11,035 bases of DNA from Anaerolineae bacterium (GTDB lineage: Bacteria > Chloroflexota > Anaerolineae > Anaerolineales > UBA11858), in the NCBI GenBank assembly GCA_003694235.1, contig RFKO01000036.1:1-11035 (forward strand), given 5' to 3'. The position numbers and the translations under genes are program-made. Below are positions 3,585 through 9,057 of the stretch, piece by piece (position 1 is the first letter of the stretch; each line of letters opens with the position of its first letter). Below the pieces are notes generated by a model. It was not told the DNA's origin and made no database searches. It saw only the letters and a program-made list of their open reading frames with translations.

Positions 3585-4682
3585 ATGTTGACATCGCGTG
3601 AACTACAAGAATTGCTGGACTTCAATGCCGGTCACCCTGTCACCAGCGTATATCTGAACACCGATCCGGCACAGGGAAATGCAGATGTATACCGCCTGAA
3701 ACTCCGCAACCTGCTCAAAGAAGCCCAGCCGCCTGCCGAGGATGCAGAGCGCATCCTGCGCTTCTTCGAGCAGGAATATGACGGAGAAGGTCGCAGCGTG
3801 GCCGTGTTCAGCTGCCAGGCGGAAGCGTTCTTCCGCACCTTCGCCATCGCCGTGCCCATCGAAAGCCGTATCCGCCTCAGCCCCAATCGTCCGCACGTCA
3901 AGCCGTTGCTGCGGCTGCTGGATGCTTACGGGCATTACGGCGTGGCCGTGGTTGATCGCCAGAGCGCCCGTCTGTTCGCCTTCCATCTGGGCGAGCTGCT
4001 GGCAGAAGAACAATTCAGCGGCGAAAGCGTGCAACGCATCAAACAAGGAGGCGGCTCCCAGGCGGGCGGTCAGCGCGGCGGCGAAGGCGCGCCCACCATT
4101 GAAGAAATCGCCGAGCGCAACATGAAGGCCGCGGCCGAACTCAGCGCCCGCTTTTTCAAGCAGCACGACGTCCGGCGGGTACTGATCGGCGGCACAGAGG
4201 AAAACTGCGCCCGCTTCATCCAATACCTGCCGCGTCACTGGCAGAGCCTGCTCATGGGGACGTTCCCGGTTGACATGAACGCACCTTACCCCGAAATTCG
4301 CGAGAAAGCGCTGGAAATCGGCCGTCAGGCCGAACGCAAGCGCGAGGAACGGCTGGTCTCCAGCGTGATCACCGGTGCCCTGAAAGGGCAAAACGGCACG
4401 CTGGGACTGGAAGACACACTGCTCGCTCTACAGGAAGGCCGGGTGCAAACCCTGTTGATCCACGAAGGGTTGCGCCAGCCCGGCAAACGCTGCACCAAAT
4501 GCCACTACCTGACCAGCAACGGCTTGCAGGCCTGCCCTTACTGCGGCCAGCCGTTCGAGGATGTGCCCGATGTGGTCGAAATCGCTTCACAGCGCGTGAT
4601 GCGCGCCCACGGCGAGGTAGAATTCGTGCTCGACCCCGCCCTCAAACAGCACGGCGGCATCGGCGCGTTGCTGCGCTACTGA
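3585..4682 (+). CDS. Bacterial eRF1-like (baeRF / Vms1-like) protein with GGQ motif and zinc ribbon
   Basis: A 365-residue cytoplasmic protein. The N-terminal part (TSVYLNTDP, about 1-110) and the following segment YGVAVVDRQSARLFAFHLGEL (119-139) resemble the bacterial/archaeal relatives of peptide release factor eRF1 described as baeRF families, to which Vms1/ANKZF1-type peptidyl-tRNA hydrolases are related. Right after that segment lies a Gly-rich loop with Gly161-Gly162-Gln163, where eRF1 carries its catalytic GGQ, then the helix IEEIAERNMKAAAELSARFF. Residues 197-295 fit an L7Ae/eRF1 domain-3-like fold. The C-terminus has a zinc ribbon: Cys303, Cys306, Cys317 and Cys320 (CxxC-x10-CxxC). 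GAAAGGAG lies 6 nt before the ATG. Known relatives hydrolyse peptidyl-tRNA during ribosome rescue or quality control, and that role here is inferred. It sits 75 bp behind the protease, and a strong terminator follows. Confidence 0.75.
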   Translation: MLTSRELQELLDFNAGHPVTSVYLNTDPAQGNADVYRLKLRNLLKEAQPPAEDAERILRFFEQEYDGEGRSVAVFSCQAEAFFRTFAIAVPIESRIRLSPNRPHVKPLLRLLDAYGHYGVAVVDRQSARLFAFHLGELLAEEQFSGESVQRIKQGGGSQAGGQRGGEGAPTIEEIAERNMKAAAELSARFFKQHDVRRVLIGGTEENCARFIQYLPRHWQSLLMGTFPVDMNAPYPEIREKALEIGRQAERKREERLVSSVITGALKGQNGTLGLEDTLLALQEGRVQTLLIHEGLRQPGKRCTKCHYLTSNGLQACPYCGQPFEDVPDVVEIASQRVMRAHGEVEFVLDPALKQHGGIGALLRY

Positions 4683-4738: not shown

Positions 4739-7183
4739 TCACGGTGTGCGGTCGTACAAAAGACGGTAAATGGCAAACAACTCATATACCCCCTTGAGAT
4801 AGCGACGCGTTTCGTCAAAGCGCACAATTTCCACAAACAAATCCGGATCGCCCTGGGAGAGCGCGTGCCAGATCGCCGCGTTGCCCGGCCCGGCGTTGTA
4901 CGCCGCCAGCGCCGCCATCAGATCGCCATTGAAATAATCGCGTTGCTGCGCCAGATACTCCGCCCCAAAGCGCAGGCTGACCAGCGGGCGATACAGGTCT
5001 TCCGTAGCGTAACCGGGCGGCCAACCCAATTTCTGCGCCAGCGTTTCTCCTGTCGAGGGGATGATCTGCATCAAACCCAACGCGCCGGCGGAAGACTCTA
5101 CCCAGGCCGCAAACAGACTCTCCTGCCGGATGACAGCATAAAGAAACAACGGGTGCAGATCGTTCTCCACCGCGGCCGGCACCACCAGTTCCCGAAAATA
5201 CGCTCCAAAGCGCACGTGATTGAACCATGCCGGCGCGCCCAGCGTGGCCGCGTCATCCATCAGGTTGAGATCGAGCACCTGACGGGCGGCGAAAATCGCC
5301 GTGCGGTAATACCCCAGTTCAACCAGATAGTCCGCCAACAAGAACGAAGCCAGCGGATCGGTCTTCACATCCTGTCGCAGGGCGTCAAATTCGCTCCGCG
5401 CCTGGTCACGCAAACCCAAACGGTGCAACTCTGTCCCACGAATCAGGCGGGGATCGGCAGCCAGTACGCCGGGGAACGTTAAATCCACCTCCTGCGACAA
5501 ACCAAAGGCGGACCGCAGCCAGGCCTCGGCCTCGGGACGCTCCAGCGCCAGGTCGTAGCCCAGGTCATAAACCAGGGGCGGAGAGAACACCTCGCGTCCC
5601 AGCAAGATATCGCGCGCCCGCTCGCTGTAATATCCCGTGGGGTCGGCTGCAACCGCCTGCTGGAAAGCTGCTTCCGCCCCTCCCGCCTCCCCCATCGCCT
5701 GAGCGCACTTCCCCATCCAGAAATAAGCCGCGGCGCGCTCGCCTGCCGAGGAAGCATACCCCAGGTAGCGCTCAAACCACTGACGCGCCCGCGAGAAATC
5801 CGCCTGACGATAGCGCGCAATACCGGCGAGGAAGACCGCATCGGCGACCTGGTCGGCTGCAGGATACTCAACCGTCAAGCGCTGCCAGAGCTCCACCGCA
5901 TCATCCAGCGCTCCCTGCCGCTCGGCGATGCGCCCCGCTTCCATCAAGAACGCCGGCGCGCGCGGGTGCGCAGGCGATTGGGCCACAAAATCCACCAGCG
6001 TCTGACGGGCAGCCTCGTACCGCTGCTGAAAAGCCCACTGCGTGTAAGCCTTCTCCCACCATGCGTCGGCCCAACGCTCCGAATCCGGCAGCGCGGCGAT
6101 GATTTCGTCAAGGTACTCAATCGCCTGCTCGTGCTCTCCCAGCGAGCGGAAAGCCAGCGCCTGGTAATAGCGGACGATATCGTAGTGCTCCGCCTCAGGG
6201 AACTGGTTGAGATAGCGATCAAAGGCAGCAATGGCGAGGGCGTACTGGCCGGCAAAATAGTCCACCAGCCCGCGGTCAAATTCACTCACCGGATAACCCG
6301 CTTCCACAATCCAGATCAACCCCTGATAGGTATCGTAAGAAAGCGGGTAATTCTCGACCGCATCCAGATAGACGGTATAGGCCTGATCCGGTTGGCCTGA
6401 CTGCAGATAAACGCTCCCCATCTGATAATCCAGATAGGCGCGGGTGTACTCGTTGGCGGTGCGGTTATACAAATCCTGATAGGCCACCAGGGCGGTATCG
6501 TATTCGCCGGCGGCGGCATACGCATCGGCGATCTTGATTTCCAGAGAGAAAGTTTCCCCCACGCGAGGGGCAGCCAGCGCCTGCTGATATGCTTCCACAG
6601 CCGCCAGCGGATCCCCGGCCGCAATCAGCGCATCACCGCGTAACTCCTGGATATAGGAATCTACCAGACCCGGCCGCAGCCCCAGATAAAAGGCATACGC
6701 GTTAGCCGCCTGAGCGTACTCTCCCTGAGCGGAGTGCAACTGCGCCAGGGTGATGTAGGCGGGAGGGCGATACGTGGAATCGGGGAATTCAGCGATCAGG
6801 GTTTGCAACGCCTGAGCGGCCGCAGCGTAATCCTGCATGTGGAAGGCTGCGCGCCCCATACCCAGCAATGCCGCAGCGCGCTTCTCCGGGTCGCTTTCCT
6901 GCACCCAGGCGGCATGGTACGCCTCGGAGGCTGCCTGCCAGTCGCCATAGAACAACAAGCGATCTCCTTCTTCCACCGTCCCCGAGGCGACAGGCACTTC
7001 GACTGGCGGCGCGGCAGTGGGCAGAGGCGCGGGAGGCGCGGTCGCTTCGTTGACAGGCGGAAAAACCGCGGGGGAAGCAACCGTCTCTGCCGCACCGGCC
7101 TCAGGAATCTGACAGGCAGACAAGATGAGCACCCCCAAACAGAGCAAAAGTAAAGACAAAAATCGTCGAATCACAGGAAACAT
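4739..7183 (-). CDS. Slt-type lytic transglycosylase lipoprotein with long TPR region
   Basis: An 814-residue protein that should cleave the glycan strands of peptidoglycan, forming 1,6-anhydro-muropeptides outside the cytoplasmic membrane. A signal peptide ends in a canonical lipobox LSAC (Cys24), followed by a Pro/Ala-rich linker (about 30-68). A long all-helical part rich in TPR/Sel1-like motifs (for example DYAAAAQALQTLIAEFP and GEYDTALVAYQDLY) covers about 72-540, then a helical connector. The catalytic domain (about 660-800) shows Glu688 in VIRQESLF as the general acid/base, GLMQI (703-707) and AAYNAGPGN (760-768), all hallmarks of Slt70-like (family 1) enzymes. It is larger than E. coli Slt70, mostly through extra TPR helices. 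The start is supported by the signal peptide, although the ribosome site is weak (GAAAG). It converges with the release-factor-like gene and diverges from the infA unit, so it is probably monocistronic. Confidence 0.93.
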   Translation of the reverse strand: MFPVIRRFLSLLLLCLGVLILSACQIPEAGAAETVASPAVFPPVNEATAPPAPLPTAAPPVEVPVASGTVEEGDRLLFYGDWQAASEAYHAAWVQESDPEKRAAALLGMGRAAFHMQDYAAAAQALQTLIAEFPDSTYRPPAYITLAQLHSAQGEYAQAANAYAFYLGLRPGLVDSYIQELRGDALIAAGDPLAAVEAYQQALAAPRVGETFSLEIKIADAYAAAGEYDTALVAYQDLYNRTANEYTRAYLDYQMGSVYLQSGQPDQAYTVYLDAVENYPLSYDTYQGLIWIVEAGYPVSEFDRGLVDYFAGQYALAIAAFDRYLNQFPEAEHYDIVRYYQALAFRSLGEHEQAIEYLDEIIAALPDSERWADAWWEKAYTQWAFQQRYEAARQTLVDFVAQSPAHPRAPAFLMEAGRIAERQGALDDAVELWQRLTVEYPAADQVADAVFLAGIARYRQADFSRARQWFERYLGYASSAGERAAAYFWMGKCAQAMGEAGGAEAAFQQAVAADPTGYYSERARDILLGREVFSPPLVYDLGYDLALERPEAEAWLRSAFGLSQEVDLTFPGVLAADPRLIRGTELHRLGLRDQARSEFDALRQDVKTDPLASFLLADYLVELGYYRTAIFAARQVLDLNLMDDAATLGAPAWFNHVRFGAYFRELVVPAAVENDLHPLFLYAVIRQESLFAAWVESSAGALGLMQIIPSTGETLAQKLGWPPGYATEDLYRPLVSLRFGAEYLAQQRDYFNGDLMAALAAYNAGPGNAAIWHALSQGDPDLFVEIVRFDETRRYLKGVYELFAIYRLLYDRTP

Positions 7184-7246
7184 GGATGGAATTTTCTTTC
7201 TGGGGCTTGACAGTCACGCCAGGATGTTATATGTTATAATCAGTCG
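7184..7246. promoter_or_regulatory. Divergent promoter region between transglycosylase and infA units
   Basis: This AT-rich stretch separates the two divergent units. On the plus strand TGT-TATAAT (7232-7240) is a perfect extended -10, putting the start near G7247. A consensus TTGACA (7207-7212) lies 22 bp upstream of TATAAT, too far for a standard pair, so the extended -10 probably dominates. On the minus strand the overlapping TATAAC/TTATAA motifs (about 7225-7240) could serve the transglycosylase gene, but no good -35 was found. Sharing these bases would couple the two promoters. Confidence 0.6.
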
Positions 7247-7347
7247 GTTGTTTGCGAACTGTAAGCCGCGAGTCACATCATGAACAGCAAGCCTGAAATG
7301 GCATCGAAGACTTTCACCTGACACGGGGGCAGGCCTGCGCTCGCCCT

Positions 7348-7389
7348 CCCGGCTCGGCTGGTTCGCAAACAGCGGCCGGGTTTTCTTTT
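7348..7389 (+). terminator. Intrinsic terminator inside the infA leader
   Basis: CCCGGC (7348-7353) pairs with GCCGGG (7375-7380). After a small internal loop GCTG (7357-7360) pairs with CAGC (7370-7373), leaving the loop GTTCGCAAA, and TTTTCTTTT follows at once. It stands about 155 nt before the infA start with no gene in between, so readthrough must be allowed for infA unless another promoter lies downstream. Confidence 0.75.
7358..7370 (+). repeat. 13-nt direct repeat, copy 1 (in terminator loop)
   Basis: CTGGTTCGCAAAC recurs as CTGGCTCGCAAAC at 7492-7504, 12 of 13 bases identical. Both copies are complementary to the 5' end of the leader (7250-7257 at least), so each is a possible partner of the same 5' segment. 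Confidence 0.55.
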
Positions 7390-7543
7390 GTCCCGGTCCC
7401 GAAATCTTTATCAAAAAGGAGTGTGTGGTTTTCGTCGAGGTAGTTGCCTGAGAGCAACACCCCATCGCCCTTCCTTTGCCATGGCTTGCGCCTGGCTCGC
7501 AAACCTGGGAGAATCAAGAACGAGAAGAAGAGTTACGATATCT
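7390..7543 (+). promoter_or_regulatory. Distal part of the infA leader
   Basis: No gene is convincing here, but several signals are. AAAAAGGAG (7413-7421) precedes a possible 8-codon ORF at 7425-7451 starting GTG and reading (M)VFVEVVA. Its stop lies in the loop of a hairpin, GTTGC-CTGAGA-GCAAC (7443-7458), extendable by GGT/ACC around a bulged A. A second hairpin TTGCG-CCTGGCT-CGCAA (7486-7502) covers the second copy of the 13-nt repeat (7492-7504). Neither hairpin has a U tract. The infA ribosome site (AGAAGAAGAG, 7523-7532) is weak and about 11 nt from the ATG. Confidence 0.4.
7492..7504 (+). repeat. 13-nt direct repeat, copy 2 (upstream of infA)
   Basis: CTGGCTCGCAAAC, one mismatch from the copy in the terminator loop, 134 bp downstream and about 40 nt before the infA start codon. 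TCGCAAAC (7497-7504) is complementary to GTTTGCGA at 7250-7257. Confidence 0.5.
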
Positions 7544-7780
7544 ATGGCCAAAACGAACGACAAAATTCGCATTGACGGTACGGTAATAGAGGCCCTGCCA
7601 GGGACGCAATTCAAAGTCCGGCTGGACAACGGCCACGAAATTATAGCCTATCTCTCCGGCAAAATGCGCAAGTATTACATCCGCGTGCTGCTGGGAGATC
7701 GGGTCACCATTGAAATGTCCCCTTACGACATGACGCGTGGCCGTATCGTTTACCGGTATAAAAAACCTGCCGTCCAATAA
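7544..7780 (+). CDS. infA: Translation initiation factor IF-1
   Basis: A 78-residue protein with the complete IF-1 OB fold. MAK and the following [49 protein letters not shown] match the family closely: the [13 protein letters not shown] hairpin, the SGKMRK motif and [12 protein letters not shown] near the end. IF-1 binds the 30S A site and assists IF-2 and IF-3 in selecting initiator tRNA and the start codon. It is a few residues longer than E. coli IF-1 (KKPAVQ tail). The frame stays open upstream to 7388, but that stretch is leader RNA and IF-1 proteins do not extend that way. In many bacteria infA sits in the ribosomal protein cluster behind secY/adk/map. Here it is followed after 29 bp by the sigma factor gene, so the pair is probably co-transcribed and controlled by the structured leader. 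Confidence 0.96.
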
Positions 7781-7809: not shown

Positions 7810-9057
7810 ATGAAAACGATCATTAACGATCACATTCTCGAATCGCTGGACAACAGCGATAGCAAGTACTCCGCGCTGGGCAAGTTGATCGAGCTCGGGC
7901 GTCAGCAGGGGTATGTGACCTACGACGATATCCTGGCGCACTTCCCCGATGCCGAGCAAGATATCAGCCAGATCGAGGAGGTGTTTGCCGCGCTGCTGAA
8001 CGCGCAAATCCCCTATGTGGATAACACCGAGGTAGATGAAATCATTGATGAGGAGGAGTCAGAGGATTACTCTCGCGAGAAAACCGTGCGCATCCCTCCC
8101 GAGGAAGACCATCTGGCCAACATCGACACCAAGGACCTGCTGGGGTTGTACTTCAAAGACGCGGCGCATGTCCCCCTGCTGACCGCCGAGGAGGAGCTCA
8201 AACTGGCCAAGCAGATTGAGCGCGGCCGCCAGGCGCGCAAGAAACTGGCCTCCGGCAACATCTCGGAAGAGGAGCGCAAAGAACTCCTGGAAGACATCCA
8301 ACGCGAATGGGAGGCCGTCAACCACCTGATCACGGCCAACACGCGCCTGGTCATCAGTGTGGCGAAGAAGCATATGGGGCGCGGGGTGCCCTTCATTGAC
8401 CTGATTCAAGAAGGCAACATCGGCCTGATGCGCGCGGCCAAAAAGTTCGACTACAAGCGCGGCTATAAGTTCAGCACATACGCCACCTGGTGGATCCGTC
8501 AGGCGGTGACGCGCGCCATCGCCGATCAGGGACGCACCATCCGCATCCCGGTACACATGGGCGACCAGATTTCACGTCTCTTCCGCACACAGCACAAACT
8601 CAAACAGGAATTGGAGCGCGAGCCCACGGTGGAAGAGATGGCCGCCGAACTCGATATCCCGCCCGAAAAAGTGCGCTACATGCTTCAGGTCGCCCGACGG
8701 CCGCTCTCACTGGAAATGCCAACCACACTGGAAGGCGACGCCGTGCTGGGAGATTTCATCGAGGATGAGGAAACCCCCTCGCCGGATGAGACCACCACCC
8801 AGCAAATCCTGCGAGAGCAGCTGGAAGAGCTGATGGAAGAACTGCCGGCGCGCGAAGCACGCATTCTGCGCCTGCGCTACGGCATCCCCGATGGCCGTGC
8901 TCATACCCTGCAGGAAGTGGGCAACAAGGTTGGCGTTTCGCGCGAACGCGTCCGCCAGATCGAAGCCCAGGCCCTGCGCCGCCTGCGCCGCCCCGGCGTA
9001 CGCCGCAAATTGCAGGATTTTCTCGGCCCCACCTCGTCCGGCGGCAATAACTCCTGA
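7810..9057 (+). CDS. rpoD: Primary (housekeeping) RNA polymerase sigma factor, sigma-70 group 1
   Basis: A 415-residue sigma factor that directs RNA polymerase to -35/-10 promoters. A short region 1.1-like domain (about 15-75) precedes an acidic stretch (74-100). Region 1.2 (DLLGLYFKDAAHVPLL, 109-124) and region 2 (ANTRLVISVAKKHMGRGVPFIDL...) follow, with region 2.4 YATWWIRQAVTRAI (224-237). Region 3.0 GRTIRIPVHM starts at 241. Region 4.2 carries the helix-turn-helix in TLQEVGNKVGVSRERVRQIEAQAL (366-389). The presence of 1.1, 1.2 and GRTIRIPVHM marks a group 1 factor, also called sigA. The ribosome site AAGGG lies only about 2 nt from the ATG, unusually tight, and no better start is seen. It is the second gene of the infA unit, and a GC hairpin follows. 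Confidence 0.95.
   Translation: MKTIINDHILESLDNSDSKYSALGKLIELGRQQGYVTYDDILAHFPDAEQDISQIEEVFAALLNAQIPYVDNTEVDEIIDEEESEDYSREKTVRIPPEEDHLANIDTKDLLGLYFKDAAHVPLLTAEEELKLAKQIERGRQARKKLASGNISEEERKELLEDIQREWEAVNHLITANTRLVISVAKKHMGRGVPFIDLIQEGNIGLMRAAKKFDYKRGYKFSTYATWWIRQAVTRAIADQGRTIRIPVHMGDQISRLFRTQHKLKQELEREPTVEEMAAELDIPPEKVRYMLQVARRPLSLEMPTTLEGDAVLGDFIEDEETPSPDETTTQQILREQLEELMEELPAREARILRLRYGIPDGRAHTLQEVGNKVGVSRERVRQIEAQALRRLRRPGVRRKLQDFLGPTSSGGNNS

Follow-up and report, generated by a model that had tools for sequence, protein, structure and literature searches.

The question raised by this locus is whether the RNA that precedes an infA-rpoD operon in a stretch of Anaerolineae DNA of 11,035 nucleotides (the window, in full) is a regulatory switch, and of which kind. 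As expected of an attenuator, an intrinsic terminator is present between the promoter and the first gene. An earlier note on this DNA had put the region forward as a candidate attenuator, 'on' riboswitch or small RNA, in which the first 14 nucleotides of the predicted transcript form a helix (P1) with the inner part of that terminator and close over a possible sensor domain of roughly 90 nt. Our comparisons make it very probable that this leader controls the infA operon by transcription attenuation and that it belongs to an RNA family found in the window's order, whose records carry the names Anaerolineales, Anaerolineae or Chloroflexi. From the earlier reading we retain the mutually exclusive P1 and terminator and the start site, but the sensor domain finds no support in the window. 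The features are collected in Table 1, where the names slt and rpoD are those that we presume for these genes, the second being also the name used in the earlier note.

Table 1. Features of the leader and its surroundings (window coordinates)
Feature	Position	Strand	Remarks
slt, soluble lytic transglycosylase-like (presumed)	4739..7183	-	divergent; marks synteny
Predicted promoter	7207..7240	+	TTGACA 7207-7212; TATAAT 7235-7240 with upstream TG
P1 (antiterminator) 5' strand	7247..7260	+	first nucleotides of the predicted transcript; MFE fold; sequence GTTTGCGAAC
P1 extension after bulge	7264..7274	+	MFE fold; partner is the terminator 5' stem (7351-7359)
Leader interior, candidate sensing region	7275..7347	+	diverged; without the GGAG of relatives
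Intrinsic terminator	7348..7389	+	hairpin 7348-7380 CCCGGCTCGGCTGGTTCGCAAACAGCGGCCGGG, then U tract TTTTCTTTT 7381-7389
P1 3' strand	7360..7373	+	in terminator loop and inner stem; sequence GTTCGCAAAC
Site of rpsU or rpsU remnant in relatives	7411..7445	+	similarity of window to rpsU start not above chance
infA (IF-1)	7544..7780	+	first gene 3' of the leader
rpoD-like primary sigma factor (presumed)	7810..9057	+	begins 29 nt past infA

An extended -10 element (TGtTATAAT, 7232-7240) predicts a transcript start near 7247; an alternative -10 element, TATGTT at 7230-7235, has a 17-nt spacing from TTGACA. The minimum free energy (MFE) fold of 7247-7389 contains P1 at the coordinates first proposed, and it also contains the claimed extension beyond the bulge, with 7264-7267 paired to 7356-7359 and 7270-7274 to 7351-7355. 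Since P1 and the terminator hairpin use common bases, the two structures are mutually exclusive. Pairing of the first 30 nt with the terminator reaches -34.0 kcal/mol, against a mean of -19.9 (sd 3.6) for dinucleotide shuffles, 6 of 5000 being as good, and the terminator hairpin alone has -18.2 kcal/mol (a simple terminator scan called none in the window and missed it). As a whole, the leader has an unremarkable fold energy (z -1.09; 29/200 shuffles as good), and the segment 7247-7347 by itself has a lower stability than its shuffles, 183 of 200 of which fold at least as well: what is unusual is the P1 pairing, not how stably the leader folds in general. A second direct copy of the terminator arm (CGGCTGGTTCGCAAAC, 88% identical) lies at 7489-7504, before infA. 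It is missing from G001, the one further genome found for the window's genus.

That genome also gave the only clear match in a DNA-level search of 60 relatives. A 69-nt block from the promoter through +16 (7194-7262) is 90% identical in it, the interior has diverged and the terminator stretch matches at 72%, weakly (E 0.46). Its P1 strands read GTTTACGAAC where the window has GTTTGCGAAC and GTTCGTAAGC where the window has GTTCGCAAAC, so that within the 10-pair core one G-C pair has become A-U by a double change, one U-A pair has become U-G and no pair is lost. In genus g5, all 10 core pairs are kept in G017 (L035) despite further changes, and the 5'-end pairing of this locus is marginal (188/2000 shuffles as good). 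The terminator end CCGGG-TTTT is kept in L034-L039. Pairing with the 5' end is no better than in shuffles in L036-L039 (1605, 1709, 1394 and 657 of 2000), of which L036 and L038 have a complement of 8 pairs some 25 nt deeper in and L039 has two of its ten P1 pairs broken; no terminator was called in L041, where an insert sits at the terminator position. Genus g5, which neighbours the window's, shows, on these predicted pairings, partial decay. Long palindromic, MITE-like inserts were seen at several places: upstream of infA in L041, where one replaces the terminator region, between leader and infA in L036 and L037, and between 5S and rpsU in L135.

Beyond these genera, an infA search in named genomes confirmed 566 loci, and among the best 80, which were kept, rpsU (encoding bS21) lies upstream of infA in 67. 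Inspected by eye, many of the rpsU leaders among those listed have a TATAAT and a 5' end complementary to a CGGCTG...CAGCCG-U-run terminator just before rpsU, and in the leaders of the order the distance from 5' end to terminator is roughly 110-170 nt. Promoters and terminators were then picked by an automatic pipeline that made no use of the pairing. Its input comprised 83 regions (8 of the slt clade and 75 with rpsU, the terminator being sought in the 150 nt before rpsU); 60 gave both elements and 23 were excluded for lack of a callable terminator or promoter. Removal of leaders more than 75% identical reduced the 60 to 49, and 48 remained after L125, a mis-called hairpin, was dropped; L051, the second infA locus of G002, which has no rpsU, stood outside the pipeline.

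In these 48 leaders the 5' 20 nt pair with their own terminator loop at -11.63, compared with -7.79 (sd 0.38) for permuted partners (z -10; 0/20000), in a test that controls only partly for relatedness. The signal persists when the window's clade is removed (44 leaders, z -8.6) or when L046 and L049, two leaders of another type included in the 48, are taken out (z -9.9), and control segments taken from mid-leader or upstream of the promoter give z 0.1 and +1.8. When the set is thinned by identity, z is -5.6 (0/20000) for the 13 leaders that share 60% or less, -3.2 for 5 leaders and -1.8 for 3. Individually, 21 of the 48 leaders are significant against their own shuffles (p<0.05) and 27 are not. 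When the 5' segment is slid, the own-pair signal changes from z -0.2 (-15) and -7.3 (-5) to -10.0 (0), -3.9 (+10) and 0.1 (+20); it is strongest at the start predicted from TATAAT, so the start site is supported by evolution alone, and G7247, the start that had been proposed, fits both this peak and the extended -10 element.

An alignment of ten leaders points the same way. P1 and an internal hairpin, P2, directly 5' of an AAGGAG core, covary, with 6/18 pairs changed on both sides and a score of 0.298 against 0.211 (sd 0.020) in shuffles (0/500), and all six slid versions score lower on every measure; because the ten were picked by eye from a 26-row alignment and the structure was taken from one of them, this test leans towards that structure. 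For the 12 closest leaders, RNAalifold gives 17 pairs, none with a double change, and when our own structure is counted there is no covariation above shuffles. The check that the earlier note had named for P1, covariation in relatives, is thus borne out by the 48-leader permutations, the ten-leader alignment and G001, with no excess in the 12 closest leaders, and by these comparative measures the predicted exclusive alternative pairing is conserved by covariation across relatives.

The interior of the leader behaves differently from P1. GGAG occurs in 41 of the 48 interiors, where 14.4 are expected (sd 3.2, maximum 23 in 300 shuffling rounds), and the window and G001 are among the seven that lack it. 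A subgroup of 12 leaders carries the near-invariant series GAGGAGUGUGAAGCG...UUUGAUC...GAUCAU; its core GUGAAGCGU may resemble the 16S decoding site, and the GGAG core might pair with the anti-Shine-Dalgarno sequence. A model of this subgroup (R2), run on 71 loci, gave 18 matches, namely the 12 training leaders, L081 (E 1.1e-4), L073 (0.04) and four on the minus strand that are likely chance; it does not find the window. Among 199 genomes of the class it matches five, all of them among the nine of the same order; the 189 others and the window's own genome give none, and every match stands 55-65 nt 5' of the bS21 domain. The switching helix is thus general, and the putative sensing part is not uniform. 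Of the proposed sensor domain, then, the P2 and GGAG core are present in relatives, but the window and G001 lack GGAG and the subgroup model misses the window, and a conserved core such as a riboswitch would be expected to have, seen in one subgroup of relatives, is not found in the window.

Which gene does the leader accompany? It is present ahead of infA-rpoD, as the earlier note had it, but it is not peculiar to that operon: in the window's order it is mostly found before rpsU-infA, and a leader peculiar to infA-rpoD is rejected. An rpoD gene was found behind infA only in the window's own family (membership of named records being judged by gene content and matching copies), and the combination of rpoD and this leader only in g1 and g5, two genera that have the order slt, leader, infA-rpoD in common; rpoD is syntenic in L034-L039, L041, L052 and L053. 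Genus g2 (L045) has the leader before rpsU-infA, and genus g4, of the window's family, has rpsU-infA followed by rpoD but a leader of another type. Eight g4 loci (L040, L042-L044, L046, L048-L050) carry, immediately 5' of the ribosome site of rpsU, a hairpin like AGGGTGAG...CTCACCCT and lack a CGGCTG terminator; judged by its sequence, this may be a second type of leader, unrelated to the first. In eight other loci (L055, L058, L063, L106, L109, L113, L118, L125) the unit of leader, rpsU and infA comes after 23S and 5S rRNA genes.

All 83 regions had been drawn through infA searches, so that the constant presence of infA is partly by construction. A sample drawn by rpsU was therefore taken to avoid selection by infA; it overlaps the first leader set, and its groups differ by lineage as well as by linkage. 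Within the window's order, 12/12 loci have infA 210-256 nt past the start of rpsU, a terminator with a CGGC/GCCG stem is at the right place in 9/12 and P1 beats shuffles (p<0.05) in 4 of the 10 testable loci. The 32 rpsU loci from other orders of the class have neither linked infA (0/32) nor the leader (0/32, two with too little upstream sequence), and the best-scoring 30 from other classes of the phylum, where 117 genomes have a bS21 match, show no infA in the flank examined and no CGGCTG-type terminator (one has 3 nt upstream).

Where the two genes are apart, both sides can be compared. Among 11 infA loci without adjacent rpsU, a leader with a CGGC-stem terminator lies directly before infA in four and is absent in seven; in the four, 9 (L057), 1382 (L074), 183 (L079) and 85 (L095) of 2000 shuffles equal P1, two being significant. 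In g1 and g5 a separate rpsU follows 5S rRNA (by eye) without this leader (L133-L136, L140), and the second bS21 gene present in G011 and in G005 (L177, L178) has a different hairpin and a P1 that is not significant (p 0.49 and 0.33). Upstream of the separate rpsU in L136 and L140, and of the second rpsU in L177 and L178, stands a promoter-like TATAAT with another hairpin and a U run, perhaps another attenuator type on the strength of these motifs. A leader before infA without rpsU, together with separate rpsU genes without a leader, suggests that the leader follows infA where the genes are apart, in the loci examined. Remnants of rpsU after the terminator are significant in L035 (0/100 shuffles as good) and L041 (1/100), weak in L039 (6/100) and absent in the window (33/100), L034 (32/100) and L036 (93/100), and the window's own assembly, only 81% complete, yielded no bS21 gene. 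The gene arrangements thus trace a history in which, in the window's clade, rpsU would have left this site and the leader stayed with infA-rpoD.

A course of events compatible with these structures can be proposed. Transcription would begin at about 7247; if 7247-7260 captures the emerging 7360-7373, the terminator could not close and polymerase would read through into infA-rpoD, and if the 5' end is held away, hairpin 7348-7380 would form and an RNA of about 140 nt would be released near 7389. Most relatives would use the same switch before rpsU-infA, with P1 closing over P2 and the GGAG-containing strand. P1 can form first, since its 3' strand emerges from the polymerase ahead of most of the terminator 3' half. 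In the full-length window leader the P1 form is the MFE, at -51.5 versus -43.5 for the terminator form, and with the terminator 3' half kept free the window stands at +1.0 kcal/mol towards the terminator; by the same comparison in 46 leaders, 8 favour P1 by more than 1, 10 lie within 1 and 28 favour the terminator, and at least 8 P1 pairs form in 30 of the 46. With energies this close, small inputs could tip the switch. We infer from sequence that the switch operates in the cell, as we do the direction in which it works and what it responds to.

For the input, our first guess is IF-1 itself, in autogenous control; nothing points directly to it, and it is ranked first because it is infA, and not the separate rpsU, that the leader accompanies, and because IF1 of Escherichia coli can antiterminate: it is described as an RNA chaperone that can also act as an antiterminator, both in vivo and in vitro (PMC3017892). 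The whole proposal, that IF-1 binds the nascent leader, sets P1 against the terminator and so controls its own operon and, here, the primary sigma factor, and that this was kept when rpsU left, is speculative and on balance rather unlikely to be correct in full. bS21, the free 30S subunit or a metabolite are possible inputs as well.

The strongest competitor for the sensed partner is bS21: the RNA would be a bS21 ribosomal-protein leader, and the window's copy a remnant that stayed next to infA when rpsU moved away. The gene of the protein supposedly sensed directly follows the leader in most relatives (67 of the 80 named infA loci have rpsU), not in the window, and the loss of the widespread GGAG core from the window and G001 and the decay in part of g5 would suit a remnant. 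But P1 and terminator are kept by compensating changes in the window's own genus, where rpsU is elsewhere, neither the separate rpsU genes nor the second bS21 genes have such a leader, rpsU loci without infA have none, and four infA loci have it without rpsU; we regard this explanation as possible yet doubtful. Alternatively, P1 could simply fix a termination fraction with no input sensed at all, a constitutive setting that would agree with energies near balance in many leaders and with the diverged window interior. The P2 covariation and GGAG core of relatives suggest a selected interior, however, and we find such a setting unlikely.

If instead P1, P2 and core formed the aptamer of a metabolite riboswitch with P1 as its switching helix, the 5'-end position of P1, the covariation of P2 and the near-invariant stretches in the subgroup of 12 would all be in place; the core nevertheless varies within the family and is not preserved in the window, and the linked genes seen, rpsU, infA and rpoD, include none that is metabolic, which makes this improbable. 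Improbable too is the idea of a small RNA, a terminated transcript of some 140 nt acting in trans with incidental readthrough: promoter and terminator delimit it and its ends pair, yet the pairing partner is inside the terminator, the leaders sit before infA or rpsU-infA and there is no match to 6S or other families. Finally, GTTTGCGAAC and GTTCGCAAAC might be imperfect palindromes read by a repressor as DNA operators, with one arm at the start site and the similar third copy at 7489-7504. That copy is not kept in G001, and the arm sequence changes entirely across relatives with complementarity preserved; we reject the operator pair as very improbable. The transcription attenuator of the infA operon remains the reading that we adopt.

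An Rfam 15 search of the window returned no family at the gathering threshold, the only match at E<=5 being a chance match of another family at 3632-3721, and 19 relative loci gave rRNA only; on this ground 6S and other known RNAs are rejected, in agreement with the original impression that no known RNA class could be recognised. The titles, abstracts and passages of open-licence literature yielded no rpsU or infA leader RNA in Chloroflexota, and a word match in the main text of some RNA-discovery papers found none for rpsU, S21 or infA; an RNA switch for infA is not known to us from elsewhere. The best reading of these sequence comparisons is a new lineage-specific RNA family within a known kind, the attenuator leaders of translation genes. 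A conserved switch before rpsU and infA, downstream of rRNA genes in several of these genomes and joined to a sigma factor gene in one lineage, would give direct access to the way in which translation and transcription capacity are set in a phylum known chiefly through metagenomes; it is also a natural case of a leader remaining with one gene after its first gene departed.

Among known systems, the L10, L20 and S10 leaders are autogenous ribosomal-protein leaders that use attenuation, and the present RNA resembles leaders of this type in standing before translation genes, in its exclusive terminator and antiterminator and in being lineage-specific; it differs in that none was found for infA in the literature searched and in that the window leader has no Rfam match. 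Some transcriptional riboswitches use a 5'-end switching helix, and here too the first nucleotides form a P1 that competes with a terminator, but the window has no conserved ligand core and the linked genes are not metabolic. For rpsU, a review reports Shine-Dalgarno-based control in Flavobacteria, calls the regulation of E. coli rpsU unknown and gives the E. coli macromolecular synthesis operon as rpsU-dnaG-rpoD (PMC10931766). In that operon, as here, a translation-initiation gene is coupled with the gene of the primary sigma factor, whereas here the order is infA-rpoD (rpsU-infA-rpoD in g4), dnaG is absent and infA-rpoD stands behind an attenuator in the 5' leader. The antitermination of the IF1/CspA type is alike in that IF1 acts as an antiterminator in E. 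coli, and unlike in that the accessible part of that account describes no IF1-responsive leader of infA itself (PMC3017892), which is what the leader of the window, as we tentatively read it, would be.
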